Positions 2,608 through 20,358 of a DNA stretch of 64,000 bases are shown piece after piece. The notes under the pieces were generated by a model. It ran no database searches and was not told the DNA's origin. It worked only from the letters and a program-made list of their open reading frames with translations. The DNA comes from Microbacterium sp. Clip185 (GTDB lineage: Bacteria; Actinomycetota; Actinomycetes; Actinomycetales; Microbacteriaceae): positions 434,001 through 498,000 of the forward strand of contig NZ_CP117996.1 in assembly GCF_028743715.1 (NCBI RefSeq), read 5' to 3'. Every line of letters begins with the position of its first letter. Position 1 is the first letter of the stretch. A program made the translations under genes and the position numbers.

Positions 2608-2622
2608 TTCCACGCAGTGGAA
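2608..2622. promoter_or_regulatory. IclR-type operator candidate (site A)
   Basis: TTCCAC-GCA-GTGGAA is a perfect 6-bp inverted repeat with a 3-bp spacer, 44 bp upstream of the IclR start. Two related sequences lie at 9692-9707 and 13393-13408, in front of the operons that this regulator probably controls. The geometry suits an IclR-family dimer site and autoregulation. This is inference from repeated sequence and position. Confidence 0.5.
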
Positions 2623-2665
2623 ACGGACCATAGCCAGGGCGGGACGCATCCGCGATGATGGGGGC

Positions 2666-3457
2666 ATGGCGATGGCGCTGGAGGGTACGTCCGACGACGG
2701 CGCGCGCTCTCTGATCGACCGGGCCTTCGCCATCCTCGGCACCTTCCAGGGCGGGCGCGTGCGGCAGTCCCTCTCCGACATCTCCCGCCGTACCGGGCTA
2801 CCGATCGCGACCTGTCACCGCATCGTGAAGCGTCTCACCGAGTGGGGCGCGCTGGAGCGCGACGGCGACGGGCGCTACAACATCGGGTTGCGGCTCTGGG
2901 AGACGGCGTCGCTCGCGCCGCGGTCGGTCGGGCTGCAGCGGCTCGCCCGGCCCTACCTGCTCGACCTATACGAGACGACGGGCTACGCGGCGCACCTCGC
3001 GATCCGCGAGGGGCTGGAGCTCGTCTCGATCGAGCTGCTGCAGAGCCCCCGGCGCCAGGCCCCGAGGCCCCGCGTCGGAAACAGGTATCCCCTGCACGCG
3101 ACCGCGATCGGCCTCGTGCTCCTCGCGCACGCTCCTGAGGAGGTGCGGGAGGAGGTCCTCTCGCGCCCGCTCACCGCATTCACCTCGCGCACCTACACCG
3201 ACCCGGTCCTGCTCGAGCGCCTGCTCGCCGACATCCGCCGCAGCGGCTACGCCGTCAGCGACCGGCAGGTGGACAACGTGCACATCAGCGTGGCCGCCCC
3301 CGTCTACGCCGCAGACGGCTCCGTCGTCGCCGCCTGTTCGCTGGCTCTGACCGAGCAGGATGTGGACGGCAAGAACATGATCCACCTCGTGCGTCTGACG
3401 GCGACCTCCATCTCCCGTCAGCTCGCCGCCGCCGGATACGCCCGCCCGGAGACCTGA
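2666..3457 (+). CDS. IclR-family transcriptional regulator (1)
   Basis: A 263-aa IclR-family protein. Residues about 15-65 form the winged helix-turn-helix (SLSDISRRTGLPIATCHRIV). The rest is the GAF-like effector domain, with typical YPLHATAIGLVLLA and SVAAPVYAADGSVVAACSLAL stretches. The frame is open from 2498, but the ATG at 2666 (or 2672) gives the family-normal N terminus. The upstream CGATGATGGGGGC looks more like a leaderless -10 than an RBS. It converges with the acyl-CoA dehydrogenase operon, with 3 bp between the stops. The operator-like palindrome at 2608-2622 and similar motifs in the neighbouring promoters make it the likely regulator of the catabolic island from 3.4 to 16.3 kb. 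Confidence 0.88.
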   Translation: MAMALEGTSDDGARSLIDRAFAILGTFQGGRVRQSLSDISRRTGLPIATCHRIVKRLTEWGALERDGDGRYNIGLRLWETASLAPRSVGLQRLARPYLLDLYETTGYAAHLAIREGLELVSIELLQSPRRQAPRPRVGNRYPLHATAIGLVLLAHAPEEVREEVLSRPLTAFTSRTYTDPVLLERLLADIRRSGYAVSDRQVDNVHISVAAPVYAADGSVVAACSLALTEQDVDGKNMIHLVRLTATSISRQLAAAGYARPET

Positions 3458-3460
3458 CCC

Positions 3461-4636
3461 TCAGCGCGTGAAAGCACTGAGACCGGTGACGGCGCGCCCC
3501 ACGATTAGGGCATTCATCTCCCGCGTCCCCTCGAACGTGTAGAGCGCCTCGGCGTCGGCGAAGAAGCGGGCGACGTCGTTGTCGACGCGGATGCCCTCGG
3601 CGCCGCAGATCTCCCGAGCAAGGGCGACCGTCTCGCGGGCGTGGTCGGCGGCCCAGCCCTTCACGAGCGCCGCCTGCATCTCGTCCGCGCCGCCGTTGTG
3701 GCGGGCGTCGGTGATGGCGACGGCCAGCGCGAGTGTCGCGGTCGCGTTGCCCAGCATCCGCGACAGCTTCTCCTGCACGAGCTGGAAGCCGGCGATCGGC
3801 CGCCCGAACTGCCGCCGGCGCATCGCGTACGCCAGCGCCGCCTCGTACGCCCCGATCTGGAGCCCTGCCGCATTCCACGCGACGACGAACCGCAGGTCGG
3901 CGAGGATCGCGGCGAGATCGGCGAACGAGTCGATGCGCTGCAGTCGGTCGCGCTCGGGCACACGCACGTCGCGCAGCTCGATGTCGCCGTTGCGCACCAT
4001 CCGCAGCGCGATCTTGCCCGTCACGTCGCGCACCGTCACGCCCCCGGCCTCCCGCGGCACGAGGAACGCCTTCACCCGATCGTCGGCGGTGTCGCGGGCG
4101 ACCACGACGATCACCTCCGACAGCGCCGCGTTGCCGATCCACCGCTTGTGCCCATGGATGCGCCACGTGTCGCCCTCGCGGGTCGCCGTGGTCTCGAGCC
4201 CACCGGCCACGTCGGAGCCGTGGTCGGGCTCGGTGAGCGCGAAGCATCCGGTGAGAGCGAACGAACGGATGCGGGGATCCCACCGTTCGACCTGCTCGGG
4301 GGAGCCGCCCCGGCGTACGAGCGTGCGGAACATGCCGACCTGCCCGCCGTAGAGGGTGCCGATCGACATGTCGAAGCGGGCGAGCTCGAGGTGGCGGAAG
4401 CCCACGTACAGCGGCCGCGGCTCGCCGTCTGCGCCGAGGATCGCGGGATCGTCCTCGAGATGCAGCGCCGCGATCTCCTGGCGGAGGTGAGCGGGGCAGT
4501 GCGCGTCCTCCCACCAGGTGGCCAGGTGCGGTCGGGCGCTGCGCTCCAGCAGCTCCCGCAACGCGGTGAGCTTGGCTGCTTCGGCGTCCGTGAGCCGCCC
4601 GGCGTAGCCGAAGACGTCGGTGGGTGCCGCCGTCAC
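3461..4636 (-). CDS. Acyl-CoA dehydrogenase, glutaryl-CoA dehydrogenase-like
   Basis: A 391-aa flavoprotein of the acyl-CoA dehydrogenase family. FAD-binding ALTEPDHGSDVAGG and WIGN lie in the middle domain. The C-terminal TFEGTREMNALIVGRAVTG closely follows the glutaryl-CoA dehydrogenase pattern, with Glu369 as the predicted catalytic base. The frame extends further upstream, but the GTG at 4636 overlaps the stop of the amidohydrolase gene (GTGA) and gives a normal length. It is the last gene of a six-gene operon with a CoA ligase, hydratase and two dehydrogenases, so it probably oxidises a CoA-activated intermediate. Whether it also decarboxylates, as glutaryl-CoA dehydrogenase does, cannot be decided here. 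No electron-transfer flavoprotein gene is in the window. Confidence 0.85.
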   Translation of the reverse strand: MTAAPTDVFGYAGRLTDAEAAKLTALRELLERSARPHLATWWEDAHCPAHLRQEIAALHLEDDPAILGADGEPRPLYVGFRHLELARFDMSIGTLYGGQVGMFRTLVRRGGSPEQVERWDPRIRSFALTGCFALTEPDHGSDVAGGLETTATREGDTWRIHGHKRWIGNAALSEVIVVVARDTADDRVKAFLVPREAGGVTVRDVTGKIALRMVRNGDIELRDVRVPERDRLQRIDSFADLAAILADLRFVVAWNAAGLQIGAYEAALAYAMRRRQFGRPIAGFQLVQEKLSRMLGNATATLALAVAITDARHNGGADEMQAALVKGWAADHARETVALAREICGAEGIRVDNDVARFFADAEALYTFEGTREMNALIVGRAVTGLSAFTR

Positions 4637-5502
4637 GACAGTCCCAGCAGCCGTGCCGCGTTCTGCTTGACGATCATCTCGTGCACGTCCGCGGGGAGAT
4701 CGAGCGTCTGCACGTCGTTCAGCCACCGGTCGGGGGTGAGGGCGGGCATGTCGGAGCCGAAGAGCATCTTGTGCTTCAGATACGTGCGCGCCGCCCGCAC
4801 GAGCGCGGGCGAGAAGTACTTCGGCGACCAGCCGGACAGATCGATCCACGTGTTGAGCTTGTGGGTGGCGATCGAGAGCGCCTCGTCCTGCCAGGGCACG
4901 CTCGGGTGGGCCATGATCACCTGCAGATCAGGGTGCCGGGCAGCGACGTCGTCCAGGAGCATCGGGTTCGACAGCGACAGTCGGAACCCCCATCCGCCGG
5001 GGGTGCCGGCGCCGGCGCCGGTCTGCCCGGTGTGCACGATGATCGGCACGCCGAGCTCCTCGATCGTCGACCAGAGCGGATCGAACTCGTCCGCGGACGG
5101 GTCGAAGCCCTGCACCGAGGGGTGGAACTTGAAGCCGCGCACGCCCAGCTCGCCGACCTGGCGGCGGGCCTCCTCGACCGCCGCCTCGCCCTGGAGCGGG
5201 TCGACGCTGCCGAACGGGATCAGTACGTCGGCGTTGCGGTGCGCGCCCGCGGCAAGATCGTCGATGCTGTTCGGCGCGTGGCCCAGGTTGGTCGTCGCGT
5301 CGACGGTGAACACGACCGCAGCCATCTTGCGCTCGCGGTAGTAGTGCGCCGTCGCATCCACCGTGCGAGGCGGCTCGCTGCTGCCGAAGTACGCCGCCAT
5401 GGCGGCGGTCAGGGCGGGCGGCGACGCGGTGCGTCCGCTGTCGTCGATCTGCACGTGGACGTGCACGTCGATCGCGGAGACGGCGTTCAGATCGATGGTC
5501 AT
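4633..5502 (-). CDS. Amidohydrolase-2 family TIM-barrel metal hydrolase/decarboxylase
   Basis: A 289-aa amidohydrolase_2 protein. The metal-site motifs are in order: HVH at 14-16, a central FKFHPSVQGF, VHTGQTG, IMAHPSVPW and the terminal LFGSDMPAL. This family includes gamma-resorcylate, acetylsalicylate and ACMS-type decarboxylases as well as C-C and ester hydrolases. The sequence does not fix the reaction. It overlaps both neighbours by 4 bp (ATGA and GTGA), so it is translationally coupled in the acyl-CoA operon. A role in cleaving or decarboxylating a ring-derived intermediate is plausible but inferred. Confidence 0.8.
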   Translation of the reverse strand: MTIDLNAVSAIDVHVHVQIDDSGRTASPPALTAAMAAYFGSSEPPRTVDATAHYYRERKMAAVVFTVDATTNLGHAPNSIDDLAAGAHRNADVLIPFGSVDPLQGEAAVEEARRQVGELGVRGFKFHPSVQGFDPSADEFDPLWSTIEELGVPIIVHTGQTGAGAGTPGGWGFRLSLSNPMLLDDVAARHPDLQVIMAHPSVPWQDEALSIATHKLNTWIDLSGWSPKYFSPALVRAARTYLKHKMLFGSDMPALTPDRWLNDVQTLDLPADVHEMIVKQNAARLLGLS

Positions 5503-7121
5503 CGTGCTCCCTGCATCCGTTCTGCCTGTTCGGCGGCGGCGTCGGCCTTGACGCGCGCGAGTTCGATCTTGCCGGTCTGGCTGCGCGCGAGCGTCGGGCG
5601 CACGAAGACCTGACGGGGCTTCTTGTATCCGGCGAGGCGCTCGTCGAGGTACGCCGCGAGGGCGTCGAGGTCGACCACGGCCCCGGCGACGGGAACGATC
5701 ATGGCCGAGACCACCTCACCGAACCGCGGATGCGGCAGGCCGAACACGACGGCGTCGTCGATGTCGGGGTGCGTCAGCAGCTGCTCCTCCACCTCGGCGG
5801 GGAAGACCTTCTCGCCGCCCGTGTTGACCACGGCGCTGAGTCGGCCGAGGAGCTCGATCGAGCCGTCGCCGCGCGCCAGAGCCCAGTCGCCGGGCATCAC
5901 ATAGCGGTGCTCGCCGATGGTCGGGAAGGTGCGCGCGGTTTTCTCGGGGTCGCCGTAGTAGCCGCGGGGGAGGACCCCGCGGAAGGCGAGGATGCCGCGC
6001 GCCCCTGCAACCGGCGGGATCTCGGTCAGATCCTCGTCCAAGAGCACGGTGCCCGGAGTCAGCATGAGCTTGGCGGGCAGATCCTCGGCCGTTCGGGTGA
6101 TGCCGAACGCGAACGGACCGCCCTCGCTGGAGGCGAGAAGATCGACGATCATGACGTCGCCCTGCGCGTGCAATCGGCGCTTGACCTCGTCGCTGAAGCG
6201 CATCCCCGAGCTCATGATCGAGTCGATGCGGCCGAGGCCCCGCCCGTCGGACTCGACGGCCTCGACGAAGGGCAGCGCGACCGCGTCCCCGGCGACGACG
6301 AGACGGGTCACGCCGTGCTGATGCACGAGAGCGAGGGCGTCGGAGACGTCCAGGTGGGCATCTTCGAGCAGCACGATCGTGCCGCCGAGGGCCAGGGTGC
6401 CCATCGTCGTGGACTGCGCGGTGCCGTGCAGCATGGGCGGCAGAGGCAGCGTCACCACGCGCGGGGTGGCGGGGTCGGTCGCGATGCGCGTCGCCTCGTC
6501 GAGGTCGTCCGGCGGCTCGATCCCGATGACGCCCCACGTCGACTGGCGGCGTGCCTGCAGCAGGGTGTCCATCTCCCACACGACGGCCTTGGGGGCGCCG
6601 GTCGTGCCGCCCGTGTAGAGCCGCAGGTCCGCGCCGCGGGGTGCGGCCAGGGGGATCTCGCCTCCCGCCGCGACGATCGTGTCGTAGTCCTCGGCGCCGG
6701 GGATGGATGCGGCGGCGTCACCGTCTGCGACGGCGATCAACGACACGGCGGGGTCGAGTCCCGCCACGGCCTCGGCGGCGACGGTCGCGAGAGAGGTCGG
6801 TGCGATGAGCACCTTCGCGTCGCAGTCCTCCAGCAGGGCGCGCACCTCGCCCGCCCGGTAGCGGTAGTTGATCGCGACGGGCGAGGCTCCGACGGCGAGG
6901 CACGCCCAGAAGAAGGTGAGGTACTCGGCCCGGTTGTACAGCAGCAGTGCGGCGGCATCGCCGAGTCCGACGCCGTTCTCGCGCAGGTGCCGGGCGAGAG
7001 CACCGGCCTCCGCGGCGAAGCGCGCGTAGCTGAGGCGCCGTGTCGGGGTGACGATGGCGGTGCGGTCGGGATCGGCCCGGGCGATCCGCGCCCACAGATC
7101 GCTGTAGTGGATGCCACTCAC
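5499..7121 (-). CDS. AMP-binding acyl-CoA synthetase (CoA ligase)
   Basis: A 540-aa ANL-superfamily enzyme that activates a carboxylic acid with ATP and CoA. The phosphate-binding loop is YTGGTTGAPK (about 169-178), the adenylate-binding region is GDWALARGDGSIELLGR, and the C-terminal catalytic lysine sits in SQTGKIEL (about 518). The GTG start at 7121 overlaps the stop of the SDR gene (GTGA). The much longer open frame upstream of it would run into that gene and is rejected. It is probably the entry point by which the operon's substrate becomes a CoA ester. The substrate class (medium chain, aromatic or branched) is not evident. Confidence 0.87.
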   Translation of the reverse strand: MSGIHYSDLWARIARADPDRTAIVTPTRRLSYARFAAEAGALARHLRENGVGLGDAAALLLYNRAEYLTFFWACLAVGASPVAINYRYRAGEVRALLEDCDAKVLIAPTSLATVAAEAVAGLDPAVSLIAVADGDAAASIPGAEDYDTIVAAGGEIPLAAPRGADLRLYTGGTTGAPKAVVWEMDTLLQARRQSTWGVIGIEPPDDLDEATRIATDPATPRVVTLPLPPMLHGTAQSTTMGTLALGGTIVLLEDAHLDVSDALALVHQHGVTRLVVAGDAVALPFVEAVESDGRGLGRIDSIMSSGMRFSDEVKRRLHAQGDVMIVDLLASSEGGPFAFGITRTAEDLPAKLMLTPGTVLLDEDLTEIPPVAGARGILAFRGVLPRGYYGDPEKTARTFPTIGEHRYVMPGDWALARGDGSIELLGRLSAVVNTGGEKVFPAEVEEQLLTHPDIDDAVVFGLPHPRFGEVVSAMIVPVAGAVVDLDALAAYLDERLAGYKKPRQVFVRPTLARSQTGKIELARVKADAAAEQAERMQGAR

Positions 7122-8032
7122 GCGTTCTCCTTTCGCGACGGCGGCCCCGAGGGCTGCGCCTGCGCGGCGAAGCGATCGGTCCAGGCGGCGTCGATCTCCT
7201 CCGCGCTCCACCCGCCGTCACGGTGGTCGGTGTCGAGCACCTGCGGGTGGGCGTAGAGAGTGAGCCGGTCACCGCCGATTCCGATGGCCTGTCCCGTCAC
7301 CTCGGCCGCCCGATCGGAGGCGAGCCACACCACCAGCGGCGCCACGTCGTCGGGGGTGCCCAGCGCCTTCTCGCGGCGGAGCTCCGGCGGAACCGGGAGG
7401 CCCGCGAGGTGGTCCTCCCACGCCTGCGCGTAGGCGGGGATCGTCGCTGTCATGGGGGAGAGCGCCGTCGGCACGACGGCGTTGACGGTGATCTCGGCAC
7501 GGGCGAGCTCGAGCGACCAGGTGCGCGCCATCGCGACGATCCCCGCCTTCACGGCCGCGTAGTTCGTCTGGCCGAAGCTGCCGAACTGGCCGGCCGGGGA
7601 CCCGATGAGGATGATGCGCCCGCCCTCGCCCTGCTCGCGCAGGAAGGATGCGGCGGCTCGGCCGCACGTGAAGGTGCCGCGCAGGTGCGTCTCGACGACG
7701 AGGTCGAACTCCTCGTCGCTCATCTTCCACAGCACCCGGTCGCGCAGCACCCCGGCATTGGCGACGAGGATGTCGAGCCGGCCGAAGGCGTCCACGGCGG
7801 CACGGACGAGCTGCTCGGCGGCTGCCGTCGTACCGACTGCGGCCACGGCTGCCGTGGCGGCCCCGCCCGCGGCGCGGATCTCCTCGACCACGGCGTCGGC
7901 CGATGCCGCATCCACGTCGTTGACGACGACCGCGGCTCCCGCGGCCGCGAGGGCGAGCGCGTAGGCCCGGCCGAGGCTGCGCCCCGCTCCCGTGACGATC
8001 GCGACCCGGCCGTCGAGTCGGATGCTGCTCAC
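7118..8032 (-). CDS. SDR-family dehydrogenase (3-hydroxyacyl-CoA type)
   Basis: A 304-aa short-chain dehydrogenase/reductase. The Rossmann dinucleotide motif is TGAGRSLG (14-21), with VNDVD after beta-2 favouring NAD over NADP. The catalytic residues are Ser145, Tyr158 and Lys162 in NYAAVKAG. The long C-terminal tail resembles the SDR domain of peroxisomal multifunctional beta-oxidation enzymes and their bacterial homologues. Next to a MaoC-type hydratase it would oxidise the 3-hydroxyacyl-CoA made by that enzyme. It overlaps both neighbours by 4 bp. Confidence 0.85.
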   Translation of the reverse strand: MSSIRLDGRVAIVTGAGRSLGRAYALALAAAGAAVVVNDVDAASADAVVEEIRAAGGAATAAVAAVGTTAAAEQLVRAAVDAFGRLDILVANAGVLRDRVLWKMSDEEFDLVVETHLRGTFTCGRAAASFLREQGEGGRIILIGSPAGQFGSFGQTNYAAVKAGIVAMARTWSLELARAEITVNAVVPTALSPMTATIPAYAQAWEDHLAGLPVPPELRREKALGTPDDVAPLVVWLASDRAAEVTGQAIGIGGDRLTLYAHPQVLDTDHRDGGWSAEEIDAAWTDRFAAQAQPSGPPSRKENA

Positions 8033-8484
8033 CGGAAGTGCCTCAGGATCAGTTCGGCGACGACTCCCGGTTTCGCAGACCCCTCGACCTCGAAGGTGAG
8101 CGCGAGCGTGACCTGCAGCGCGTCGCCGCGGTCCTCGACCTCGGCGATCCGACCGGTGAGGCGGATGCGTCCGCCCGACGGCGTCGGGGCCGGGAAGCGG
8201 ATGCGGTCGAAGCCGTAGACGATGCCGGCGCTCGCGCCGCTCACGCGGTAGATCTCCCGCAGGGGGAGCACGACCATGCTGAGGGTCAGCATGCCGTGCG
8301 CGATGCGTCCGCCGAACGGCGATGCGGCCGCGGCGGCCTCGTCGACGTGCAGCGGGTTGTCGTCGCCGGTCAGATCCGCGTAGACGTCGATGTCGTCCTG
8401 CGTGATCGGGTACCAGGAGGACGGGCCCAGCTCTCTTCCGCGGGCGGCGGGGAGTTCTTCGATCGCAATGGCGTCGGTCGTCAT
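8029..8484 (-). CDS. MaoC-like enoyl-CoA hydratase/dehydratase
   Basis: A 151-aa hot-dog-fold protein with the R-hydratase signature DDNPLHVD, in which Asp42 and His46 are the expected catalytic pair, followed by SPFGGRIAHGML. The length is normal for a single-domain MaoC protein. It would hydrate a 2-enoyl-CoA for the neighbouring SDR dehydrogenase. The ATG at 8484 overlaps the stop of the alcohol dehydrogenase gene by 4 bp. Confidence 0.85.
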   Translation of the reverse strand: MTTDAIAIEELPAARGRELGPSSWYPITQDDIDVYADLTGDDNPLHVDEAAAAASPFGGRIAHGMLTLSMVVLPLREIYRVSGASAGIVYGFDRIRFPAPTPSGGRIRLTGRIAEVEDRGDALQVTLALTFEVEGSAKPGVVAELILRHFR

Positions 8485-9626
8485 CGGGTCTCCTCTTCTC
8501 TGATGCGTCGGGGGATGATGATGGCCCGACCGGTGATCTCGCCCCGCGCGAGTGCCGCGTAGGCGGCGTCCGCGTCCTCGAGGTCGAAACGGCGGGTCAC
8601 GAGTCGGTCGGTGTCGAAGGCGCCGTCGGCCGCGAGGCGGACGACGGCGGGAAGGTCCTCGCGGGTGCGGGCGCCGAACGAGCCGACGATCTGCTGGCCG
8701 CGACGCACGAGGGGGGTGATCTCCACCTGCGCCCGGGTTCCGGCGGCGGCGATGCCGATCGCGACGAGCCGCGCGCCGTCGCCGAGCATGCCGAGCCCCT
8801 GCTCCAGGGTCTCGGCGCGTCCCAGTGCCTCGAACACCACGTCGACGCCGCCCGAGCGGGCGCGCACGGCCTCGACCGGGTCCTCCGACGACGCATCGAC
8901 GGTGGCGGTCGCGCCGAGCTCGCGGGCGCTGCGCAGTTTGTCCGCCGCGATGTCGACCGCGATGACCTCGCGCGCGCCGGCGGCGAGGCACAGCGGGATG
9001 AGGCTCGAGCCGATCCCCCCGACGCCGATGATCGCGACGGTCGTCCCTTCGGCCACCTCGCCGGCGCGGAAGACGGCGCCGTAGGAGGTGAGCCCCGCGC
9101 AGCCGAGGATGCAGGAGGTCTCGGGATCGAGGCCGGGGGAGAGGACTGCGAGCGCCGAGATCGGGACGACGCAGTACTCGGCGAGCCCGCCCATCGAGTA
9201 CATCGCGAGGAACGACCCGTCCGGCATCCGAAGTCTGCTGCGGCTGTCGAACAGGGTCCCCTCCAGTCGATTGCGCCGGAAGAACTGCTCGCACAGGTCG
9301 TCGCGGCCGCGCAGGCACGCCCTGCAGGTGCGGCAGGGCATGATGAACCCGGCCACGACGGTGTCGCCGATCTCGAACGACGTGTCGCTGCCGGCGCCGA
9401 TGGCCACGATCCGCCCGCTCACCTCGTGCCCCATGACCGCGGGGCGCGGGAAGGCGACCTCGCCCTTGATCACGTGCAGGTCGGTGTGGCAGACGCCGCA
9501 CGCGATCACCTCGAGCAGCACCTCGTCGGGCCCGGGTTCCGGGACGGCGATCGTCATCATCCGCATCGCGGCGCGCTCGTCCGCCAGCACCGCTGCCCGC
9601 ATCGTCGCGGGGATGGGAGTCAACAC
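8481..9626 (-). CDS. Zinc-dependent alcohol dehydrogenase (MDR family)
   Basis: A 381-aa medium-chain dehydrogenase. CGVCHTD (43-49) and GHE supply the catalytic zinc ligands. CRTCRACLRGRDDLC supplies four cysteines of the structural zinc site, and IGVGGIGSS is the NAD-binding turn. It is the first gene of the minus-strand operon. GTG at 9626 was chosen because GAGGAC lies 5-6 bases upstream; the open frame reaching to 9986 would cross the divergent UGSC gene. It probably oxidises an alcohol or hydroxy intermediate before CoA activation. The substrate is unknown. Confidence 0.85.
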   Translation of the reverse strand: MLTPIPATMRAAVLADERAAMRMMTIAVPEPGPDEVLLEVIACGVCHTDLHVIKGEVAFPRPAVMGHEVSGRIVAIGAGSDTSFEIGDTVVAGFIMPCRTCRACLRGRDDLCEQFFRRNRLEGTLFDSRSRLRMPDGSFLAMYSMGGLAEYCVVPISALAVLSPGLDPETSCILGCAGLTSYGAVFRAGEVAEGTTVAIIGVGGIGSSLIPLCLAAGAREVIAVDIAADKLRSARELGATATVDASSEDPVEAVRARSGGVDVVFEALGRAETLEQGLGMLGDGARLVAIGIAAAGTRAQVEITPLVRRGQQIVGSFGARTREDLPAVVRLAADGAFDTDRLVTRRFDLEDADAAYAALARGEITGRAIIIPRRIREEETR

Positions 9627-9691
9627 GGATCGTCCTCGTTCCTGTGGTCTCCCAGCATCCTGTCCGCTGCCCTCCGGACGAGCACGCACCC

Positions 9692-9707
9692 TTCCGTGGA
9701 GTGAAAA
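9692..9707. promoter_or_regulatory. IclR-type operator candidate (site B) in a divergent promoter
   Basis: TTCCGTGGAGTGAAAA lies in the 154-bp gap between the divergent alcohol dehydrogenase and UGSC operons. It matches site A at 2608 (TTCCACGCAGTGGAAA) and site C at 13393 (TTCCGGTGAGTGAAAA) over the TTCC and AGTGnAAA parts. A single regulator bound here could control both operons. Confidence 0.5.
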
Positions 9708-9780
9708 CCAGCCTCCGAGCGAGGCGAGCGCGCGTGTCATCCTGACCGCCGCGCAACTGGCGCGACGAAGGGAGAGCGAG

Positions 9781-10323
9781 ATGGCACCGCAGGAAGCGCT
9801 GCTGGATCCGACCGGGATGAGCGCGGGCGCCGACGACGGCACGCTCGCCGCTCGTCCGGTGAGCCTGCGAGGACTCCGGGTCGGGCTGCTGGACAACACG
9901 AAGCCGAACGCCACGATGCTGCTGGAGGAGATCGCCGCGATCCTCCAGCGCGAGCATGCCGCGGGCGAGGCCACGCTGTACACCAAGGACTACTTCGGGA
10001 CCCCCCTGTCCGAACCGCTGCTGGAGCGCATCGCGGCGGAGAACGACATCGTGATCACCGCGGTCGGCGACTGCGGCAGCTGCTCGGCGGCGACCGTCGC
10101 CGACGGGATCATGTTCGAACGCGCGGGAGTGCCGACGGTGTCGATCACCTCGGACTCGTTCTTCATGTCTGGTCGCGCCATGGCCTCGGTGCAAGGCTTC
10201 CCGGGGTTCGAGTTCACCGCCGTCGCGCATCCGATGGCGAGTCTGACGGAGACCGAGGTGCGCGAGCGCGCGGCCGCGGTCATGCCCGAGGTCCTGCGGA
10301 TCCTGGGCGTGGAGGAGGGATGA
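9781..10323 (+). CDS. UGSC-family protein (cysteine form)
   Basis: A 180-aa protein of the UGSC family, named after a motif in which selenocysteine or cysteine precedes GSC. Here the motif is VGDCGSC, with Cys98 encoded by TGC at 10072, and it is followed by SAATVADGIMFERAGVPTV. The alternating beta/alpha pattern (GLRVGLLDNTKPN, then DIVITAVGD, then VSITSDSF) suggests a Rossmann-like or thioredoxin-like fold. No biochemical function is established to my knowledge; a Cys-based redox or ligase role is a guess. The ATG has AAGGGAGAG upstream. It is the first gene of the operon that ends with aconitase X and overlaps the next gene by 4 bp. Confidence 0.8.
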   Translation: MAPQEALLDPTGMSAGADDGTLAARPVSLRGLRVGLLDNTKPNATMLLEEIAAILQREHAAGEATLYTKDYFGTPLSEPLLERIAAENDIVITAVGDCGSCSAATVADGIMFERAGVPTVSITSDSFFMSGRAMASVQGFPGFEFTAVAHPMASLTETEVRERAAAVMPEVLRILGVEEG

Positions 10324-11435
10324 CGATGACGCTTCTGACGGACGAGACGCCCACGGTCGACGCCGACCGCGTGCGCGAGCTGGTCGAGTACTACTACGAG
10401 AACGACTGGACCGACGGCCTGCCCGTGGTGCCGGTCACCGAGACGCTCCTCGAGGAGTTCCTCGCCGCCACGGATCGGGGCGCGGACGAGGTGCTGTTCA
10501 CGATCTCGCACCTCAACCGCTCGATGACGGTGCGGCTGGCGGCGATCAACGCGGCCATGGCCGGATGTCGGGCGGACTACTTCCCGACCGTGATCGCGGC
10601 GTGGGAGGCCATCGCGAAGGAGCCGCATCCGGCTCGCGGGATCTGGCAGTCGACGACCGGCACGGCGCCCATGCTCGTCGTCAACGGGCCCGTCCGCGAG
10701 CGGATCGGGCTCAACGGACGCGGCAACGTCTTCGGATCGGGCTTCCGCGCCAACGCCACGATCGGGCGCGCGATCCGACTCGGATGCATCAACGTGTTCG
10801 GCCTGCATCCGCACAAGCTCGACCAGGCGACGCAGGGGACTCCCGCGAAGTACTCGGCGTGCATCGCCGAGAACGAGGAGCAGAGCCCGTGGGAGCCGCT
10901 GCACGTCGAGCACGGCTTCGCCCCTGGCGACGACGTCGTGACAGCGTTCGTCATCCGCTCGGTCGTGCACATCGAGGCGCGGCACACGCAGGAGCCCGAG
11001 CAGCTGGCGCGGGACCTGATCGACACGATCGCCCGCACGGGTGCGCTCATCCACGAGTACACGAGCGCGCTGCTCGTGCTCACGCCCGAGCATGCGCAGG
11101 TGTTCGCCCGTGCCGGCTGGAGCAAGGACGATCTGCGCACCTTCGTGTTCGAGAACGCCCGTCGCACCCGCGCGGAGCTCGCCGCCGTCGGCAAGGACGC
11201 GCTGTCGCACAAGACGCGCTGGCGGTTGCCGAGCACCCACCCCGACTCGATGCCCGACACGGCGAGCGCCGGCGACGAACCCGAGGCGGTCGCATCTCTG
11301 CACAGCCCCAGCTCGGTGCAGATCATGGTCGCCGGCGCCGACAACGCGGGCGTCTCGGCGGTCGTGGAGATCTTCACCCTGAACCCGCCGCGCGAGATCC
11401 CCTTCTCGCAGAGCCGGATCGGCGGCGAGCGATGA
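10320..11435 (+). CDS. Conserved protein of unknown function, UGSC partner
   Basis: A 371-aa protein with no domain I can name. Its distinctive conserved-looking blocks are DWTDGLPVVPVTE (29-41), INAAMAGCRADYFP, NGRGNVFGSGFRANATIGRA and CIAENEEQSPWEPLHVEHG. I recall proteins with these blocks encoded beside UGSC proteins in environmental Actinobacteria and Proteobacteria, also unassigned. There is no signal peptide or membrane segment, so it should be cytoplasmic. It overlaps the genes on both sides by 4 bp, implying tight co-expression and perhaps a complex with the UGSC protein. Confidence 0.75.
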   Translation: MTMTLLTDETPTVDADRVRELVEYYYENDWTDGLPVVPVTETLLEEFLAATDRGADEVLFTISHLNRSMTVRLAAINAAMAGCRADYFPTVIAAWEAIAKEPHPARGIWQSTTGTAPMLVVNGPVRERIGLNGRGNVFGSGFRANATIGRAIRLGCINVFGLHPHKLDQATQGTPAKYSACIAENEEQSPWEPLHVEHGFAPGDDVVTAFVIRSVVHIEARHTQEPEQLARDLIDTIARTGALIHEYTSALLVLTPEHAQVFARAGWSKDDLRTFVFENARRTRAELAAVGKDALSHKTRWRLPSTHPDSMPDTASAGDEPEAVASLHSPSSVQIMVAGADNAGVSAVVEIFTLNPPREIPFSQSRIGGER

Positions 11436-11680
11436 GCGCCGCGACCTCGGTCGACGAGGCCCTCGCCCCCTTCGGGGAGATGATGGGCGCCGACGGGTAC
11501 CTGCTCAGCTGGGAGCCCTCCGGTGACGATCGGATCGTCGTGCGCATCGCGGCGGGAGAGGGCGCCTGTGCGGATTGCCTCGTGCCGCTGAGCGTCATGG
11601 AGGCGATCATGGGCCAGGCGCTCGCGCCGACCGCGTACGAACTGGATCACGTCGTGCTGCCCGAGGGCGCCGCGCACTGA
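11432..11680 (+). CDS. Small CxxC protein resembling the NifU C-terminal domain
   Basis: An 82-aa protein. Residues about 18-65 follow the NifU C-terminal (iron-sulfur scaffold) layout: a beta strand GYLLSW, a second strand RIVVRIAAGEG, then ACADCLVP with a CxxC pair, then a helix. The similarity is by pattern only and is remote. Its place just before aconitase X, a probable iron-sulfur dehydratase, would suit a dedicated cluster carrier or a small redox subunit. It overlaps the previous gene by 4 bp and is easily missed because of its size. Confidence 0.65.
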   Translation: MSAATSVDEALAPFGEMMGADGYLLSWEPSGDDRIVVRIAAGEGACADCLVPLSVMEAIMGQALAPTAYELDHVVLPEGAAH

Positions 11681-11693
11681 GCGGGCCGCGATC

Positions 11694-12974
11694 ATGCACC
11701 TCACCGATGAGGAGAAGCGCATGCGCGACGGCGTCGAGGGCGACGCCGTCGCGGTCGCGATGGACCTGCTGATCCGCTACGGCGACGCGCTCCAGGCGGA
11801 GCGTCTGGTCGCCACCCGCAACGTCGCCGGCACCATGACCCAGCCCTCGCCCGCCAAGGCGAAGCTGGTGGCCGAGGGCGGCTGGGCCAAGGCGTTCGCC
11901 GTCATGAACCTCGACAGCGACCGGGAGCTCGAGATCCCCTCGATGCGCGTGCCCACCTGTCAGCTGCAGCACGGTTTCGGCGCAGACGCCGAAGGGCTCA
12001 CCCGCTACCCGGCCGACAGCATCCGGCTGCAGGAGGATGCGGAGTCGTACTTCACCGAGCGGGGCGTGCGGGTGCTGGGCACCTGCACGCCCTACCAGGT
12101 GGGGAACCTTCCCGTCCTCGGCGAGCACTGCGCCTGGATGGAGTCCTCCGCCGTCGTCTACGCGAACTCCGTCCTGGGGGCGCGCACCAACTGCGAGGGA
12201 GCGGCATCCACCGGCGCCGCGTCGCTGACCGGCCGCATCCCGTACTGGGGCAACCATCTGCCCGCGAACCGTCTCGCCACCCACCTCGTGCGGGCCGAGA
12301 CGCCCGTGGAGGGATTCCGAGAGTGGGGGCTGCTCGGCTACTTCGTGGGCGAGCTCGTCCAGGAGGCGAGACCGGCGGTCGTCGGCTCGCTCGCGCCGGC
12401 ATCGGATGCGGACCTCAAGCACTTCGGTGCGGCCACCGCGACCTCGGGCGGTGTGGAGCTGTACCACCTGCCCGGTGTCACGCCGGAGGCGCCGACCCTG
12501 GAGGCGGCGTTCGGGAGATCCCGGATCCCGGAGGCGGTGACGTACGGCTCGCGGGAGCGGCGGGCGACCTACGAGACGCTCAACGCGCAGGGCGAGAGCA
12601 CGGAGGTCGACTTCGTGCTGCTCGGCTGCCCGCATGCCTCGCTCGCACAGGTGCAGGAGATCGCGGGGCTCCTCGAGGGGCGTCGGTTGGCCGACGACGT
12701 GCAGCTGTGGATCATGCTGCCGCGTGCGCTCGCCGCCGACGCCTTGCGCCAGGGCTGGACGCGCACGATCACCCGCGCCGGAGGGCGGGTGCTGACCGAG
12801 TCGTGCCCCGCCATGTCGCGCGCAGCGCCGCCCGGCACCCGCGTGATGGCGACGGACTCTGCCAAGCAGGCCCACTACCTGCCCGCGATCCTCGGCATCG
12901 AGGCGTGGTTCGGCACGACGTGGGAGTGCGTGGATGCGGCCGTCACGGGCCGCTGGCGGGGGGAGCTCACGTGA
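11694..12974 (+). CDS. Aconitase X large (catalytic) subunit
   Basis: A 426-aa member of the AcnX (DUF521) family. GTCTPYQVGNLPVLGEH and SSAVVYANSVLGARTNCEGA are the signature blocks. Cys131, Cys312 (LGCPHAS) and Cys371 (TESCPAM) are good candidates for iron-sulfur ligands. Known AcnX enzymes dehydrate cis-3-hydroxy-L-proline in bacteria or mevalonate 5-phosphate in archaea, so this one is probably a hydro-lyase of a hydroxy acid. The context (UGSC protein, NitT/TauT-type importer) matches neither known pathway, so the substrate is open. It overlaps the small-subunit gene by 4 bp. The gap to the previous gene is 13 bp and the RBS is weak. Confidence 0.85.
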   Translation: MHLTDEEKRMRDGVEGDAVAVAMDLLIRYGDALQAERLVATRNVAGTMTQPSPAKAKLVAEGGWAKAFAVMNLDSDRELEIPSMRVPTCQLQHGFGADAEGLTRYPADSIRLQEDAESYFTERGVRVLGTCTPYQVGNLPVLGEHCAWMESSAVVYANSVLGARTNCEGAASTGAASLTGRIPYWGNHLPANRLATHLVRAETPVEGFREWGLLGYFVGELVQEARPAVVGSLAPASDADLKHFGAATATSGGVELYHLPGVTPEAPTLEAAFGRSRIPEAVTYGSRERRATYETLNAQGESTEVDFVLLGCPHASLAQVQEIAGLLEGRRLADDVQLWIMLPRALAADALRQGWTRTITRAGGRVLTESCPAMSRAAPPGTRVMATDSAKQAHYLPAILGIEAWFGTTWECVDAAVTGRWRGELT

Positions 12975-13405
12975 TCGAGCTGGTGGGGCGGGGTATCGTG
13001 CCCGGACGCGTGCGCGCGCCGGCGCTCGTCACGCGGGAGCCGATCTCCGGCTTCGGGGGTATCGACGTCGCGACCGGCACGGTGATCGAACCGCGGCACG
13101 AGCTGTTCGGGCAGTGCTTCACGGGTCGGGTGCTCGTCTTCCCCGGCGCCAAGGGCTCGTCGGGCTGGTCGGGGTTCTTCCAGAGCACGCGGCTCATGGG
13201 CACCGCACCCGCAGCCCTCGTCTTCGACGTGATCACGACGAAGGCGGTGCTCGGCGCCATCGTGACGCGGGTGCCCACGGTCGTGCAGGCTGCCCCTGCG
13301 CCTGTGGACACGATCCGCACGGGCGACCTCGTGGAGGTCGACGGCGACACCGGTCGGATCGTCGTGATCCGGACCGACGGGGTGGCGGTGCATTCCGGTG
13401 AGTGA
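12971..13405 (+). CDS. Aconitase X small (swivel) subunit
   Basis: A 144-aa DUF126 protein corresponding to the swivelling domain of aconitase. FPGAKGSSGWSGFFQST is the conserved serine-rich loop that completes the AcnX active site. Many AcnX proteins are fusions of the two parts; here they are separate genes with a GTGA overlap, so a heterodimer is expected. The stop codon lies inside the operator-like motif at 13393-13408. Confidence 0.85.
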   Translation: MIELVGRGIVPGRVRAPALVTREPISGFGGIDVATGTVIEPRHELFGQCFTGRVLVFPGAKGSSGWSGFFQSTRLMGTAPAALVFDVITTKAVLGAIVTRVPTVVQAAPAPVDTIRTGDLVEVDGDTGRIVVIRTDGVAVHSGE

Positions 13406-13408
13406 AAA
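13393..13408. promoter_or_regulatory. IclR-type operator candidate (site C)
   Basis: TTCCGGTGAGTGAAAA overlaps the end of the aconitase X small-subunit gene, 88 bp before the importer operon. It differs from site B at two adjacent bases only. Its repeated presence in front of three units of one island is the main evidence for a shared regulon. Confidence 0.45.
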
Positions 13409-13495
13409 GGTGGTTGGACCCCGGCGTACTGGTTCGCAGACTCGTCGTGTCGCTCGCAATGGCGTGAGCGGATCATCCCGACACAGGAGTCAGAC

Positions 13496-14581
13496 ATGAT
13501 CACAGCAGTTCGTCGTCCGAAGACCCGCCGTCTGTCGCTGGTCGCAGCGTCGCTCGCGGTGGGCGCGCTCGCGCTCACGGGATGCGGCGGAGGTGCCGCG
13601 GAGGAGTCGGGCTCCACGCCCGGTGCCGGCGGGGATCTCGGCTCCATGACGGTGGTCACGTTCCTGCCCCTGGAGTCGTTCAGCTTCGGCCCGGAGATGT
13701 TCGCGTACTCGGGCGGCTACTTCGAGAAGCACGGACTCGACGTGACGCTCCAGCCGGTGCAGGGCACGTCCGCCGCGATCCAGTCGCTGCTCGGCGGCGC
13801 CACCACCTTGACCCGTGCGAGCACGGTCGACGTGTTCCCGCCGATGGTCGACGGACAGCCGATCCGCGCCGTGGGCACGATGGCGTACAAGTCGAACCTG
13901 CGCATGATCTCGGTCGAGGACGACCCGATCACGACCCCCGCCGACATGGAGGGCAAGGTCATCGGCATGGGCTCGATCGGCGGGACGAGCGAGAAGCTCC
14001 TGAACCTGACGCTGGACGACGCGGGCATCGCGGAGGACACCGTGACCCGCCAGGCGGTGCCCGTCACGGCGGCGACCCTGGAGGTCGTGCGTCAGGGACA
14101 GCTCGACGGCTACATCGTCAGCCTCGACACCTCCCTCGCCATCGGCCAGCAGAACCCGGATGCCGTCGTCGACGACGCCGGACTCGGCGACGCTCCCGAC
14201 ATCCAGACCTGGATCACGACCGAGTCGAACCTCAAGGACGAGAAGAAGGTCGCGCAGATCGAGGCGTTCATGGCCGCCATCCGCGAGGCCGTGCAGGACA
14301 TGATCGACGATGCGCCGAACGACTTCGCCAACGTGCTGAAGACGCTGCGCGACAGCGGCGACTGGAACTTCCCGGCGCTCGCCGACGACAAGATCGCAGC
14401 GGCGGCGCTCGAGGTGTACACGACCCAGACCTGGATCGACGCCGACGGCGGCGTGCCGCTGCTGGAGAACGACCTGGACGCCTGGCAGGCGACCTACGAC
14501 ACCTACGTCAAGGCGGGGATGCTCGAGGGTGGCCAGAACCCGGGCGACTGGATCACGAACGACTACGTGCCCGCCGACTGA
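13496..14581 (+). CDS. ABC importer substrate-binding lipoprotein, NMT1/SsuA-like
   Basis: A 361-aa lipoprotein. The signal ends in LALTGC, with Cys30 as the lipidated residue. The mature part has the NMT1/THI5-like periplasmic-binding fold used by nitrate, sulfonate, taurine and aromatic-acid importers: GYFEKHGLDVTLQPVQG, then LGGATTLTRAST, then a helix around KVIGMGSIGGTSEKLL. It has a clear RBS (CAGGAG). ATPase and permease genes follow at once. The ligand is not readable from sequence; the island context suggests it is the substrate degraded by the neighbouring enzymes. Confidence 0.85.
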   Translation: MITAVRRPKTRRLSLVAASLAVGALALTGCGGGAAEESGSTPGAGGDLGSMTVVTFLPLESFSFGPEMFAYSGGYFEKHGLDVTLQPVQGTSAAIQSLLGGATTLTRASTVDVFPPMVDGQPIRAVGTMAYKSNLRMISVEDDPITTPADMEGKVIGMGSIGGTSEKLLNLTLDDAGIAEDTVTRQAVPVTAATLEVVRQGQLDGYIVSLDTSLAIGQQNPDAVVDDAGLGDAPDIQTWITTESNLKDEKKVAQIEAFMAAIREAVQDMIDDAPNDFANVLKTLRDSGDWNFPALADDKIAAAALEVYTTQTWIDADGGVPLLENDLDAWQATYDTYVKAGMLEGGQNPGDWITNDYVPAD

Positions 14582-14599
14582 GCACGGGAAGGAACGATC

Positions 14600-15433
14600 A
14601 TGAGCAACGACACCGTCGTCACGGCTGATCCGCCGCTGACTCAGACCGCGACGCAGCCCCGCCTGCGCATCCGGGGCGTCGGGCGCGACTTCCAGACCCG
14701 GGCGGGCGTGACCCACGCCGTGTCGGGTGTCGACCTCGACATCCAGCGCGGCGAGTTCGTCGCCCTGATCGGGCGCTCGGGATGCGGCAAGACGACGCTT
14801 CTGCGCATGATCGGAGGCCTGCTCGCGCCGACCGCGGGTTCGATCGAGGTCGACGGGCGCCACCTGTGGCGTGACGGCCGGGTCGAGCCGTCCGCCGTGA
14901 CCCGGCTCGGGTTCGTGTTCCAGGAGAGCAACCTGTTCCCCTGGTTCTCCGTGCTCGACAACATCGCGCTGCCGTTGAAGCTGCGCGGTGTGGGCAAGAC
15001 GGAGCGCCGAGTGCGTGCGGCCGAGCTCGCCGACCTCGTGGGGCTGAAGGGCTTCGAGCGTTCGTATCCGCGTGAGCTGTCGGGCGGGATGCGTCAGCGC
15101 GCCGCGATCGCGCGCTCGCTGAGCACCGAGCCCGACCTGCTGCTCATGGACGAGCCGTTCGGGGCGCTGGACGCGCTGACGCGCGAGCGGATGAACCTGG
15201 AGCTGCAGCGCATCGTCCTGCAGACCAACTCCACGGTCGTCTTCGTGACGCACGACATCCCCGAGGCGGTGTTCCTCGCGGATCGGGTCGTGCACATGAC
15301 GCCGCGGCCGGGCCGCATCCGACAGATCCTGACCGTTCCGGACGCCAAGCCGCGCGACATCGAGTTGCAGACGACGCCCGGATTCAACGACATCGTGCGC
15401 AGCCTTCGCCACGACCTCGACGAGGAGGAATGA
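14600..15433 (+). CDS. ABC importer ATPase, SsuB/TauB-like
   Basis: A 277-aa ABC ATPase with every core motif: Walker A GRSGCGKTT (about 58-66), Q-loop FQESNLFPW, signature LSGGMRQRAAIARSL, Walker B LLLMDEPFGALD and the switch histidine in VTHDIPEA. The profile is that of nitrate/sulfonate/taurine-type importers. It starts 18 bp after the binding-protein gene and ends 4 bp before the permease gene. Confidence 0.9.
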   Translation: MSNDTVVTADPPLTQTATQPRLRIRGVGRDFQTRAGVTHAVSGVDLDIQRGEFVALIGRSGCGKTTLLRMIGGLLAPTAGSIEVDGRHLWRDGRVEPSAVTRLGFVFQESNLFPWFSVLDNIALPLKLRGVGKTERRVRAAELADLVGLKGFERSYPRELSGGMRQRAAIARSLSTEPDLLLMDEPFGALDALTRERMNLELQRIVLQTNSTVVFVTHDIPEAVFLADRVVHMTPRPGRIRQILTVPDAKPRDIELQTTPGFNDIVRSLRHDLDEEE

Positions 15434-15437
15434 GCGC

Positions 15438-16298
15438 ATGACCACCGTGCAAGCACCCCCGGACCAGCCGACCACCACCTCGGTCGTCACCCTCGAACGC
15501 CGGCGCGCCCGCGCCCGGACCATGAAGATCCTGCCGTGGATCGTGACCCCGGCCCTCGTGGTCGTGATCATCGGCCTCTGGCAGCTCTACGTCAGCGTCT
15601 TCGAGGTGAACCCGTTCGTCTTCCCGCCGCCCGCGGCGGTCGGCGAGGCGTTCGTCGCACTCGTGGCCGACGGCAAGACGTGGGCGGAGGCGGGCGTCAC
15701 CGTCACCGAGATCCTCGTCGGCTTCGCCGTGGCCGTCGTCCTCGGTGTCGTCGTGGGCGTCGTGCTCGGCAAGCTCCCGTGGCTCGAGGTCAGCATCCGC
15801 CCGCTCATCGTCATCGCCCAGGTGGCCCCGAAGGTCGCCTTCGTGCCCCTCTTCGTGATCTGGTTCGGCTTCGGGATCACCTCCAAGATCGTCCTCGCCG
15901 CGCTGCTGGCGTTCTTCCCCGTCATGCTCAACGTGCTGCTGGGCGTGCGGTCCGTCGAGCGGGGACAGCGCGAGGTGATGCGCAGCCTCAACGCCTCCAG
16001 GGCGCAGACGTTCACGCAGCTCGAGATGCGCAGCCTGCAGCCGTACCTGTTCGCCGGGATGGAGGTCGCGATCGTCCTCGCCACGATCGGCGCCATCGTC
16101 GGCGAGTACCTCGGCGGCAGCGTCGGACTCGGCGCGATGGTCGTGCGAGCAATGAACTCGCTGGATGCGGCGCGCACCTTCGCGCTGATCCTGCTGCTCT
16201 CGCTGATCGGTCTCGTGCTGTATCTGATCGTCAACGAGGCGAAGCGGTTCTTCATCCCGTGGCACGAGTCGGTCTACGGCCTGCGCGAGAACCTCTGA
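15438..16298 (+). CDS. ABC importer permease, SsuC/TauC-like
   Basis: A 286-aa inner-membrane permease with about six hydrophobic segments. The first is around ALVVVIIGLWQLYV, and the EAA loop lies around RSLNASRAQTFTQLEMRSLQ, which contacts the ATPase. It completes a three-gene NitT/TauT importer and is followed by a strong hairpin at 16311-16343. Confidence 0.88.
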   Translation: MTTVQAPPDQPTTTSVVTLERRRARARTMKILPWIVTPALVVVIIGLWQLYVSVFEVNPFVFPPPAAVGEAFVALVADGKTWAEAGVTVTEILVGFAVAVVLGVVVGVVLGKLPWLEVSIRPLIVIAQVAPKVAFVPLFVIWFGFGITSKIVLAALLAFFPVMLNVLLGVRSVERGQREVMRSLNASRAQTFTQLEMRSLQPYLFAGMEVAIVLATIGAIVGEYLGGSVGLGAMVVRAMNSLDAARTFALILLLSLIGLVLYLIVNEAKRFFIPWHESVYGLRENL

Positions 16299-17172: not shown

Positions 17173-17179
17173 CGCTGTC

Positions 17180-20314: not shown

Positions 20315-20358
20315 CCAGTGTACGCATTGCGATCGAATGCACGCAATGCGTACACTGG
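20315..20358. promoter_or_regulatory. 17-bp perfect inverted repeat in a divergent promoter
   Basis: CCAGTGTACGCATTGCG (20315-20331) and its exact complement CGCAATGCGTACACTGG (20342-20358) are separated by 10 bases. The repeat sits between the divergent IlvD-like gene and the MFS gene. Length and symmetry indicate a regulator binding site, possibly two overlapping dimer sites. The binding protein is not identified. Confidence 0.7.

Follow-up and report, generated by a model that had tools for sequence, protein, structure and literature searches.

Proteins of the aconitase X (AcnX) and UGSC families are encoded close together in a gene cluster of Microbacterium sp. Clip185, at positions 2608–16298 of the DNA analysed here, a stretch of 64,000 nucleotides of contig NZ_CP117996.1 (hereafter the window). 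Several described systems resemble parts of this cluster. The AcnX of Agrobacterium (AtAcnX) acts on cis-3-hydroxyproline, and the residues in contact with the hydroxyproline ring are given in section 12 of PMC8184944. In the same section, Asn79 of TkAcnX, an archaeal phosphomevalonate dehydratase of AcnX type IIb, is the counterpart of AtAcnX Asn233. Types IIc to IIf have no assigned function according to section 14 of PMC8184944 and the passages of PMC10040528 on these types. In Paroceanicella profunda, AcnX is encoded in an operon with IlvD and an FAD oxidoreductase. As for UGSC, the window protein belongs to the same family as a UGSC-containing selenoprotein from marine metagenomes, for which the relevant part of PMC2398784 counts 255 selenocysteine (Sec) forms across 37 samples and also describes a fusion with a domain that it leaves unnamed. 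Reductases of the GrdB/PrdB type, which act on glycine, sarcosine, betaine or proline, are further relatives to be considered; the passages of PMC9312934 and PMC13188914 that list UGSC give it no linked function and do not join it to GrdB. In the open-licence literature, no description of the regulon presented below or of a UGSC function was found, nor any work joining aconitase X with a selenoprotein.

Profile searches of the window proteins (Pfam/NCBIfam) identified fourteen enzyme and transport genes in three units around an IclR gene, as the first-pass annotation of the window had described. The minus-strand block encodes an acyl-coenzyme A (CoA) dehydrogenase (ACAD), an amidohydrolase, an AMP-forming acyl-CoA ligase, a short-chain dehydrogenase (SDR), a MaoC-type hydratase and a zinc alcohol dehydrogenase (ADH). 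The plus-strand block encodes UGSC, its partner DGLP, a small CxxC protein and the large and small AcnX subunits, followed by the substrate-binding protein (SBP), ATPase and permease of a NitT/TauT-type ATP-binding cassette (ABC) importer. By coordinates, 4-bp start/stop overlaps join all six CoA genes, the genes of UGSC, DGLP and the small protein, and the two AcnX genes.

Comparison with relatives indicates that the cluster is one conserved regulon of import and breakdown genes. In our judgement, it comes close to an even chance that this is a catabolic regulon for a small organic acid, most likely under the regulator IclR1, in which UGSC and DGLP would form a thiol/selenol reductase working with dehydratases and CoA activation. 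By comparison, the sites in the UGSC/CoA gap and before the importer, IclR1, the importer, the ligase and UGSC–DGLP stay together across the genus. The constant set is usually joined by the NifU-like small protein, AcnX and the IlvD–FAD_oxidored pair, and it is partly kept in other actinomycetes.

Operator-like sites and regulators

The comparison set consisted of 295 genomes of the genus, 35 of which contain UGSC (PF24696), at 63 places. For the 62 places lying outside the window, the surrounding sequence was fetched in 58 stretches, each at most 20 kb long and four of them covering two places each; loci are designated by L numbers. UGSC is at least 60% identical to the window protein at 28 places, and the 18 with importer and ligase in the stretch were taken as core loci, including a 12-kb contig (L052). 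The other ten (L044, L051, L053, L054, L059, L066, L069, L071, L076 and L079) were not.

Within the window, the pattern TTCCNNNNAGTGNAAA has exactly three matches at up to one mismatch, and all three are exact, at 2608, 9692 and 13393, confirming the shared motif first noticed at these positions. By comparison, 100 dinucleotide shuffles lead to an expectation of 0.06, and three matches arose in none of them. Site 1, TTCCACGCAGTGGAAA, lies 5' of iclR1 (2608–2623, plus strand), site 2 in the divergent gap between ADH and UGSC (9692–9707, plus strand), and site 3 5' of the importer (13393–13408, plus strand). These are also the sole exact matches in the whole 3.3-Mb genome. Genome-wide enrichment is absent at up to one mismatch (6 matches in 3.3 Mb versus 6 for a reversed-pattern control), and therefore only exact sites carry weight. 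Across the 295 genomes, exact TTCCNNNNAGTGRAAA occurs 31 times against 5 for the reversed-pattern control in all 295; 21 of the matches fall in UGSC genomes (12 of the 35) and 10 in the other 260.

Conservation of the motif in orthologous gaps, a check named beforehand, was assessed upstream of genes with at least 55% identity, with expectations from 30 approximate dinucleotide shuffles per gap. At up to two mismatches, the site is present in the UGSC gaps of 24 of 28 relatives (expected 0.2) and in the SBP gaps of 19 of 21 (expected 0.23), but upstream of IclR1 in only 7 of 18 (expected 0.1), where the start codons were of our own choosing and a wrong start would hide a site. These counts are not independent, as L058, L061 and L068 are very close to the window genome. 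Spacing is regular: the outer edge of the site lies 77–99 bp from the start codon in 20 of the 24 UGSC gaps and 100–106 bp from it in 17 of the 19 SBP gaps.

Two regulators of the IclR family are encoded at this locus. IclR1 (2666–3457, plus strand; PF01614/PF09339) has an orthologue of at least 74% identity in all 18 core-cluster genomes, two of the matches being partial. IclR2 (16369–17172, plus strand; PF01614) is PcaR/PobR-like, its nearest model being TIGR02431 with 230 bits against a cut-off of 284.75, and it is present in 11 of the 18 core loci. IclR1 is therefore the better candidate and most likely the cognate regulator of the operator-like sites. A shared operator-like site in orthologous gaps and a co-occurring regulator, the two marks of a regulon, were both found by sequence comparison.

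No site of this first kind occurs between 16.2 and 21 kb of the window at up to three mismatches. The IlvD/FAD_oxidored unit found there carries a 17-nt perfect inverted repeat of its own (20315–20358, with a 10-nt gap), which has no other match in the window and lies between the gene for IlvD/EDD and one on the opposite strand for a member of the major facilitator superfamily (MFS). This repeat is possibly a separate operator of another regulator.

Conservation of the cluster

That the units stay together in relatives, a second check named beforehand, was mostly borne out in the core loci. As these were chosen by importer and ligase, the families concerned are present by selection: the SBP (13496–14581, plus strand; PF09084), the ATPase (14600–15433, plus strand; PF00005), the permease (15438–16298, plus strand; PF00528) and the ligase (5499–7121, minus strand; PF00501, nearest NCBIfam model PRK07798, under its cut-off) all reach 18/18. 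Among the unselected families, DGLP is found in 18/18, AcnX in 17/18, FAD_oxidored in 16/18, and IlvD/EDD and the small CxxC protein in 15/18 each.

The remaining CoA genes, all on the minus strand, are less constant. ACAD (3461–4636; PF00441/PF02770/PF02771) and MaoC (8029–8484; PF01575) occur in 14/18 core loci, SDR (7118–8032; PF00106) in 13/18, and ADH (8481–9626; PF08240/PF00107) and the amidohydrolase (4633–5502; Amidohydro_2, PF04909) in 11/18. Each gene of this operon other than the ligase is thus absent from 4 to 7 of the 18 loci, and L043, L045 and L056 lack all five while having the ligase. A fixed beta-oxidation-like continuation of the pathway by these six genes does not agree with these counts.

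On the other side, the cluster limit set at 16298 proved too short, since IclR2, FAD_oxidored and IlvD/EDD (16369–20283) accompany the cluster in most core loci. The last two, a PF12831 flavoprotein and a dehydratase at 17180–20283, had been left out of the first-pass annotation.

Beyond the genus, an Agromyces genome (L139) has nearly the whole set, with IclR1 not detected in the stretch. Nonomuraea glycinis combines importer, IclR gene, UGSC–DGLP–small protein, FAD_oxidored, IlvD/EDD, TrxB and TrxA; AcnX was not detected there. IlvD and FAD_oxidored adjoin UGSC–DGLP–small protein in Nonomuraea as well as in two metagenome-assembled genomes. In L066 and L069, IclR1–AcnX–UGSC–DGLP come with a thiamine pyrophosphate (TPP) enzyme; L059 has an aldehyde dehydrogenase. 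At L092, an importer and CoA genes like those of the window lie beside a UGSC–DGLP pair of only about 45% identity, an arrangement which suggests that paralogous UGSC–DGLP pairs can be swapped.

The UGSC–DGLP unit

The main interest of the locus lies in the putative UGSC–DGLP enzyme, more than in AcnX or the CoA operon. UGSC (9781–10323, plus strand) scores 223.6 bits with PF24696 (cut-off 25; E 2e-66) and 155.9 bits with NF041046 (cut-off 125), and has its CGSC motif at residues 98–101, with the cysteines C98 and C101. The labels UGSC and AcnX in the first-pass annotation are upheld by the profiles. In contrast, DGLP (10320–11435, plus strand) has no Pfam or NCBIfam match at E 1e-3, its closest named relative being a protein of Microbacterium sp. 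BG28 (97%), and the 82-aa "NifU-like" small CxxC protein (11432–11680, plus strand) itself matches no Pfam or NCBIfam profile. NifU likeness comes from the relatives of the latter: 4 of 20 aligned members match PF01106 (NifU), with a best E of 3.1e-5.

No role of its own had been given to the pair, which is in fact a widespread two-part unit. By script criterion, DGLP directly follows UGSC or is fused to it at 55 of the 60 genus UGSC places scored (two more, L099 and L100, were missed by BLAST). In addition, 79 named loci (L139–L217) were found through DGLP in actinomycetes, Chloroflexi, Proteobacteria, Binatia, Rokubacteria and others; UGSC was detected in 73 of them and AcnX in just 3, so that UGSC–DGLP rather than AcnX is the widespread element. 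Judged by this co-occurrence, UGSC and DGLP appear to behave as one enzyme. The unnamed fusion domain of PMC2398784 is possibly DGLP.

All 60 genus UGSC proteins have CxxC at the motif, 58 as CGSC and two as CSTC; the latter are the two UGSC–DGLP fusions, L097 and L098. In the 79 named loci, the codon of the nucleophile, the first cysteine of the motif, is TGA in 51 and Cys in 20, and none was found in 8, as counted from the codons themselves. Loci with TGA include Dehalococcoidia, Binatia and Rokubacteria.

The surroundings of the pair are diverse. Many UGSC–DGLP loci sit among dehydrogenases, LLM oxidoreductases and CoA transferases, without AcnX or IlvD/EDD. TrxA and TrxB lie near the pair in Arthrobacter and Nonomuraea, and the Arthrobacter UGSC protein (L008), encoded beside both, has a C-terminal stretch resembling the small CxxC protein. 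A phosphosulfolactate-synthase homologue is found near UGSC–DGLP in the same Arthrobacter locus (L008, 9728–10516) and in the haloarchaeon Natrinema (L107, 6874–7341). Two or more DGLP copies lie close together in L196, L177 and L147. At L051, L053 and L059, a UGSC about 70% identical to that of the window lies near IlvD/EDD and FAD_oxidored, with DGLP not detected in the 20-kb stretch.

UGSC is very probably a remote relative of the Sec domain of glycine-reductase subunit B, a relationship suggested by profile comparison. The alignment of a UGSC profile of 105 proteins (63 after filtering) to a GrdB set of 21 sequences, with Sec read as Cys, spans 68 columns and puts C98 of UGSC opposite the selenocysteine of GrdB, at Prob 93.3% and E 2.7e-7. 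Fourteen control families from the same loci gave a Prob of at most 1.3% (hhalign); rocD and ddaH were left out as controls, as they had too few sequences. A smaller UGSC set scored 39.3 against GrdB; the best of 100 column shuffles reached 24.3, and reversal gave 14.9. Prob was 88–89% with the Cys/Sec columns masked, 93.9% after the addition of 53 Sec forms, and 43% in the first comparison, with 15 GrdB-like sequences. UGSC thus resembles the GrdB/PrdB-type reductases in its Sec-bearing domain, with Sec/Cys in register, and in the thioredoxin genes of some loci, but it is without the long GrdB part before Sec, and its partner DGLP is related to neither GrdE nor GrdB by profile. The genome of the window has no PF07355 (GrdB family) match. 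In Actinomycetota genomes (L124–L138), fifteen short genes resembling GrdB have a TGA codon in frame, placed two residues ahead of a Cys; they probably encode selenoproteins.

The portion of PMC2398784 on UGSC tentatively proposed a thioredoxin-like protein. The AlphaFold model obtained here (predicted local distance difference test, pLDDT, 91) has a flavodoxin-like alpha/beta arrangement with five alternating strands and helices, in which C98 would stand at the start of the third helix. Flavodoxin-like folds, along with further alpha/beta folds, lead its match list, although none comes close. Sequence searches with UGSC and DGLP against solved structures returned nothing useful.

Aconitase X and the accompanying dehydratase

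The AcnX of the window is of the two-gene type, with a large subunit (11694–12974, plus strand; PF04412, 363 bits against a cut-off of 31.5, E 2e-108) and a small, swivel subunit (12971–13405, plus strand; PF01989, 79.8 bits against 27, E 1e-22). In alignments to solved enzymes, the cluster cysteines and the catalytic Glu, Ser and Lys are conserved. The last three are aligned and identical with those of the Agrobacterium enzyme, with which both families are shared. The window enzyme falls outside the cis-3-hydroxyproline type: it reaches 215.7 against the cut-off of 700 for that equivalog, and in pairwise alignments other residues stand at the positions of AtAcnX Asp203, Ile206, Thr72 and Trp35 (by our count, residue numbers in the PDB chain of AtAcnX exceed those of the paper by 10). 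No hydroxyproline gene is among the families found in the window cluster.

The two-subunit layout is common to the window AcnX and type IIb, and the equivalents of TkAcnX Cys110, Cys283, Cys342, Glu129, Ser130 and Lys361 are present. However, the window enzyme is bacterial and lies within a putative catabolic importer cluster, and it has Arg/Lys85 where AtAcnX Asn233 aligns, the counterpart of TkAcnX Asn79, which forms the phosphate site of that enzyme together with Ser50 and Asn53. Its subfamily keeps VAGTMTQPSPAK and Arg/Lys85 in all 19 other proteins from the genus and Agromyces that are complete there. In the same alignment, Gly takes the place of the catalytic Glu in the AcnX of Vibrio, which is more distant. 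With the catalytic residues kept and the ring contacts absent, the window AcnX looks like a competent dehydratase acting on a substrate other than hydroxyproline.

AcnX of at least 68% identity occurs in 27 of the 295 genus genomes, 26 of which also have UGSC, itself found in 35 of the 295 (Fisher p ~1e-28, ignoring shared descent). Four more genomes have only an AcnX of 35–50% identity.

The flavoprotein (17180–18562, minus strand) matches PF12831 (FAD_oxidored; E 5e-110) and the IlvD/EDD-type dehydratase (18559–20283, minus strand) PF00920/PF24877. The latter scores 430 bits with the ilvD model TIGR00110, under its cut-off of 618, and is thus probably distinct from the biosynthetic enzyme. 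Dehydratases of the IlvD/EDD type are Fe-S enzymes. The operon of Paroceanicella profunda has a homologous flavoprotein and IlvD and an AcnX 55% identical to that of the window, but no UGSC or DGLP in the 25-kb stretch and no NitT importer annotated; a tripartite ATP-independent periplasmic (TRAP) transporter is nearby.

Proposed pathway and alternative explanations

In the proposed pathway, a small organic acid would enter through the NitT/TauT-type ABC importer. UGSC and DGLP would be the two parts of one thiol/selenol reductase, with C98 of CGSC, selenocysteine in many relatives, as the nucleophile. By analogy with the GrdB-type Sec domain, this nucleophile might be turned over by C101, the small CxxC protein or thioredoxin. 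Conversion of a hydroxylated acid to an unsaturated or 2-oxo acid would fall to AcnX, IlvD/EDD and the flavoprotein, and the AMP-ligase and the lineage-variable oxidation genes would hand the product to CoA-linked breakdown. The reductase role is proposed because of the GrdB homology, the use of selenocysteine and the thioredoxin neighbours in some loci. A sequence of import, AcnX dehydration, oxidation, CoA activation and beta-oxidation-like steps had been suggested before. Import, dehydration and ligation follow from the gene families; the order of the steps does not. The TPP enzyme of L066 and L069 and the aldehyde dehydrogenase of L059 would fit a stage with a 2-oxo acid and an aldehyde, as would IlvD/EDD chemistry. 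Sugar acids or 2,3-dihydroxy acids (in view of IlvD/EDD with AcnX, and of these two enzymes) and sulfonates (in view of the phosphosulfolactate-synthase homologue in Arthrobacter and Natrinema) were considered as substrates and rejected as not consistent enough.

Several findings weigh against this pathway. In L057, no AcnX lies within the stretch, the genome having one about 20 kb away, and L043 and L056 have no IlvD or FAD_oxidored within 20 kb. The site is seldom kept upstream of IclR1. Five of the 60 genus UGSC places are without an adjacent DGLP by script criterion; L093 among them has one close by, and L051, L053 and L059 have none in view. TrxB lies near UGSC–DGLP in just 6 of the 79 named loci. 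The GrdB match is limited to 68 columns, and the GrdB part before Sec gives no match to UGSC (Prob 0.1%). A HMMER comparison of 40 UGSC proteins, extended to E 10, listed 18 families without PF07355 among them. DGLP is no relative of GrdE or GrdB in profile comparison, and its AlphaFold model (pLDDT 89) has no clear fold match, a resemblance to class I fumarase being weak. Finally, in Vibrio europaeus (L111, 9398–11083) and Sporomusa termitida (L013, 9323–11047), the long DGLP genes beside AcnX open with a UGSC-like domain in which MGTS stands at the CGSC position, leaving no cysteine as nucleophile. This speaks, like the scarcity of TrxB, against a universal thiol role and lowers our confidence slightly.

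These fusions bear on an alternative that we consider unlikely, in which AcnX anchors a peripheral pathway, the six CoA genes are its fixed beta-oxidation-like continuation, and UGSC and DGLP have an accessory role. In the Vibrio and Sporomusa loci, dependence of AcnX on a thiol of UGSC is impossible, and the near-constant presence of AcnX in the core loci, its co-occurrence with UGSC in 26 of 27 genomes, and the overlapping CoA genes that share a divergent gap with UGSC agree with AcnX as the anchor. On the other hand, AcnX is rare among the named UGSC/DGLP loci, Nonomuraea has the importer and UGSC–DGLP–small protein with FAD_oxidored and IlvD where AcnX was not detected, and the loss of all five CoA genes other than the ligase in three core loci is at odds with a fixed continuation. 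That these genes are lost independently of UGSC–DGLP–AcnX could also mean that two neighbouring pathways merely share a promoter region, an importer–UGSC–AcnX pathway and an unrelated acyl-CoA operon. This is highly improbable, as in L043, L045 and L056 it is the ligase that stands directly divergent to UGSC, with the site in the gap (three, one and two mismatches, respectively).

The NifU-like relatives of the small protein, the redox-type CxxC/UxxC motifs, the three cluster cysteines of AcnX and the Fe-S nature of IlvD/EDD would suit a maintenance system, in which UGSC, DGLP and the NifU-like protein reduce or repair the Fe-S clusters of AcnX and IlvD/EDD instead of forming a catabolic reductase. 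It is quite improbable, given that, among the 15 named loci encoding the small protein, 10 lack IlvD as well as AcnX and that so many UGSC–DGLP loci lie among other enzymes without those dehydratases. As for regulation, it is distinctly unlikely that the operator belongs to IclR2 and not to IclR1. IclR2 adjoins the importer, is of the same family, and is always found together with the ADH gene (11 core loci with both and 7 with neither, L043–L068), and the gap of iclR1 itself keeps the site in a minority of loci; yet L045, L056, L057, L060, L062 and L065, which lack IclR2, retain the UGSC site at up to two mismatches, and IclR1 is in every core genome.

A catabolic regulon with UGSC–DGLP as reductase is the reading retained. 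In it, one importer- and regulator-linked cluster with a conserved operator unites UGSC with an AcnX whose substrate residues are non-standard. Members of Microbacterium are generally culturable, and with such a linked cluster, substrate screening, regulator assays and gene deletions become direct tests. The UGSC–DGLP pairing and the GrdB profile link moreover lead to a concrete hypothesis about the chemistry, in which a thiol or selenol would cleave a bond reductively. We put forward tentatively, as a possibility short of an even chance, that UGSC–DGLP makes up a two-subunit reductase of a new class, with a Sec/Cys domain that shares ancestry with the glycine/proline-reductase B subunit, and that this reductase serves ordinary organic-matter breakdown across bacteria and haloarchaea. 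If so, this actinobacterial regulon would be the place to find its substrate.

Other features of the locus

Upstream of the cluster, between rocD and iclR1, about three tandem copies of an 83-bp unit are found at 2358–2577.

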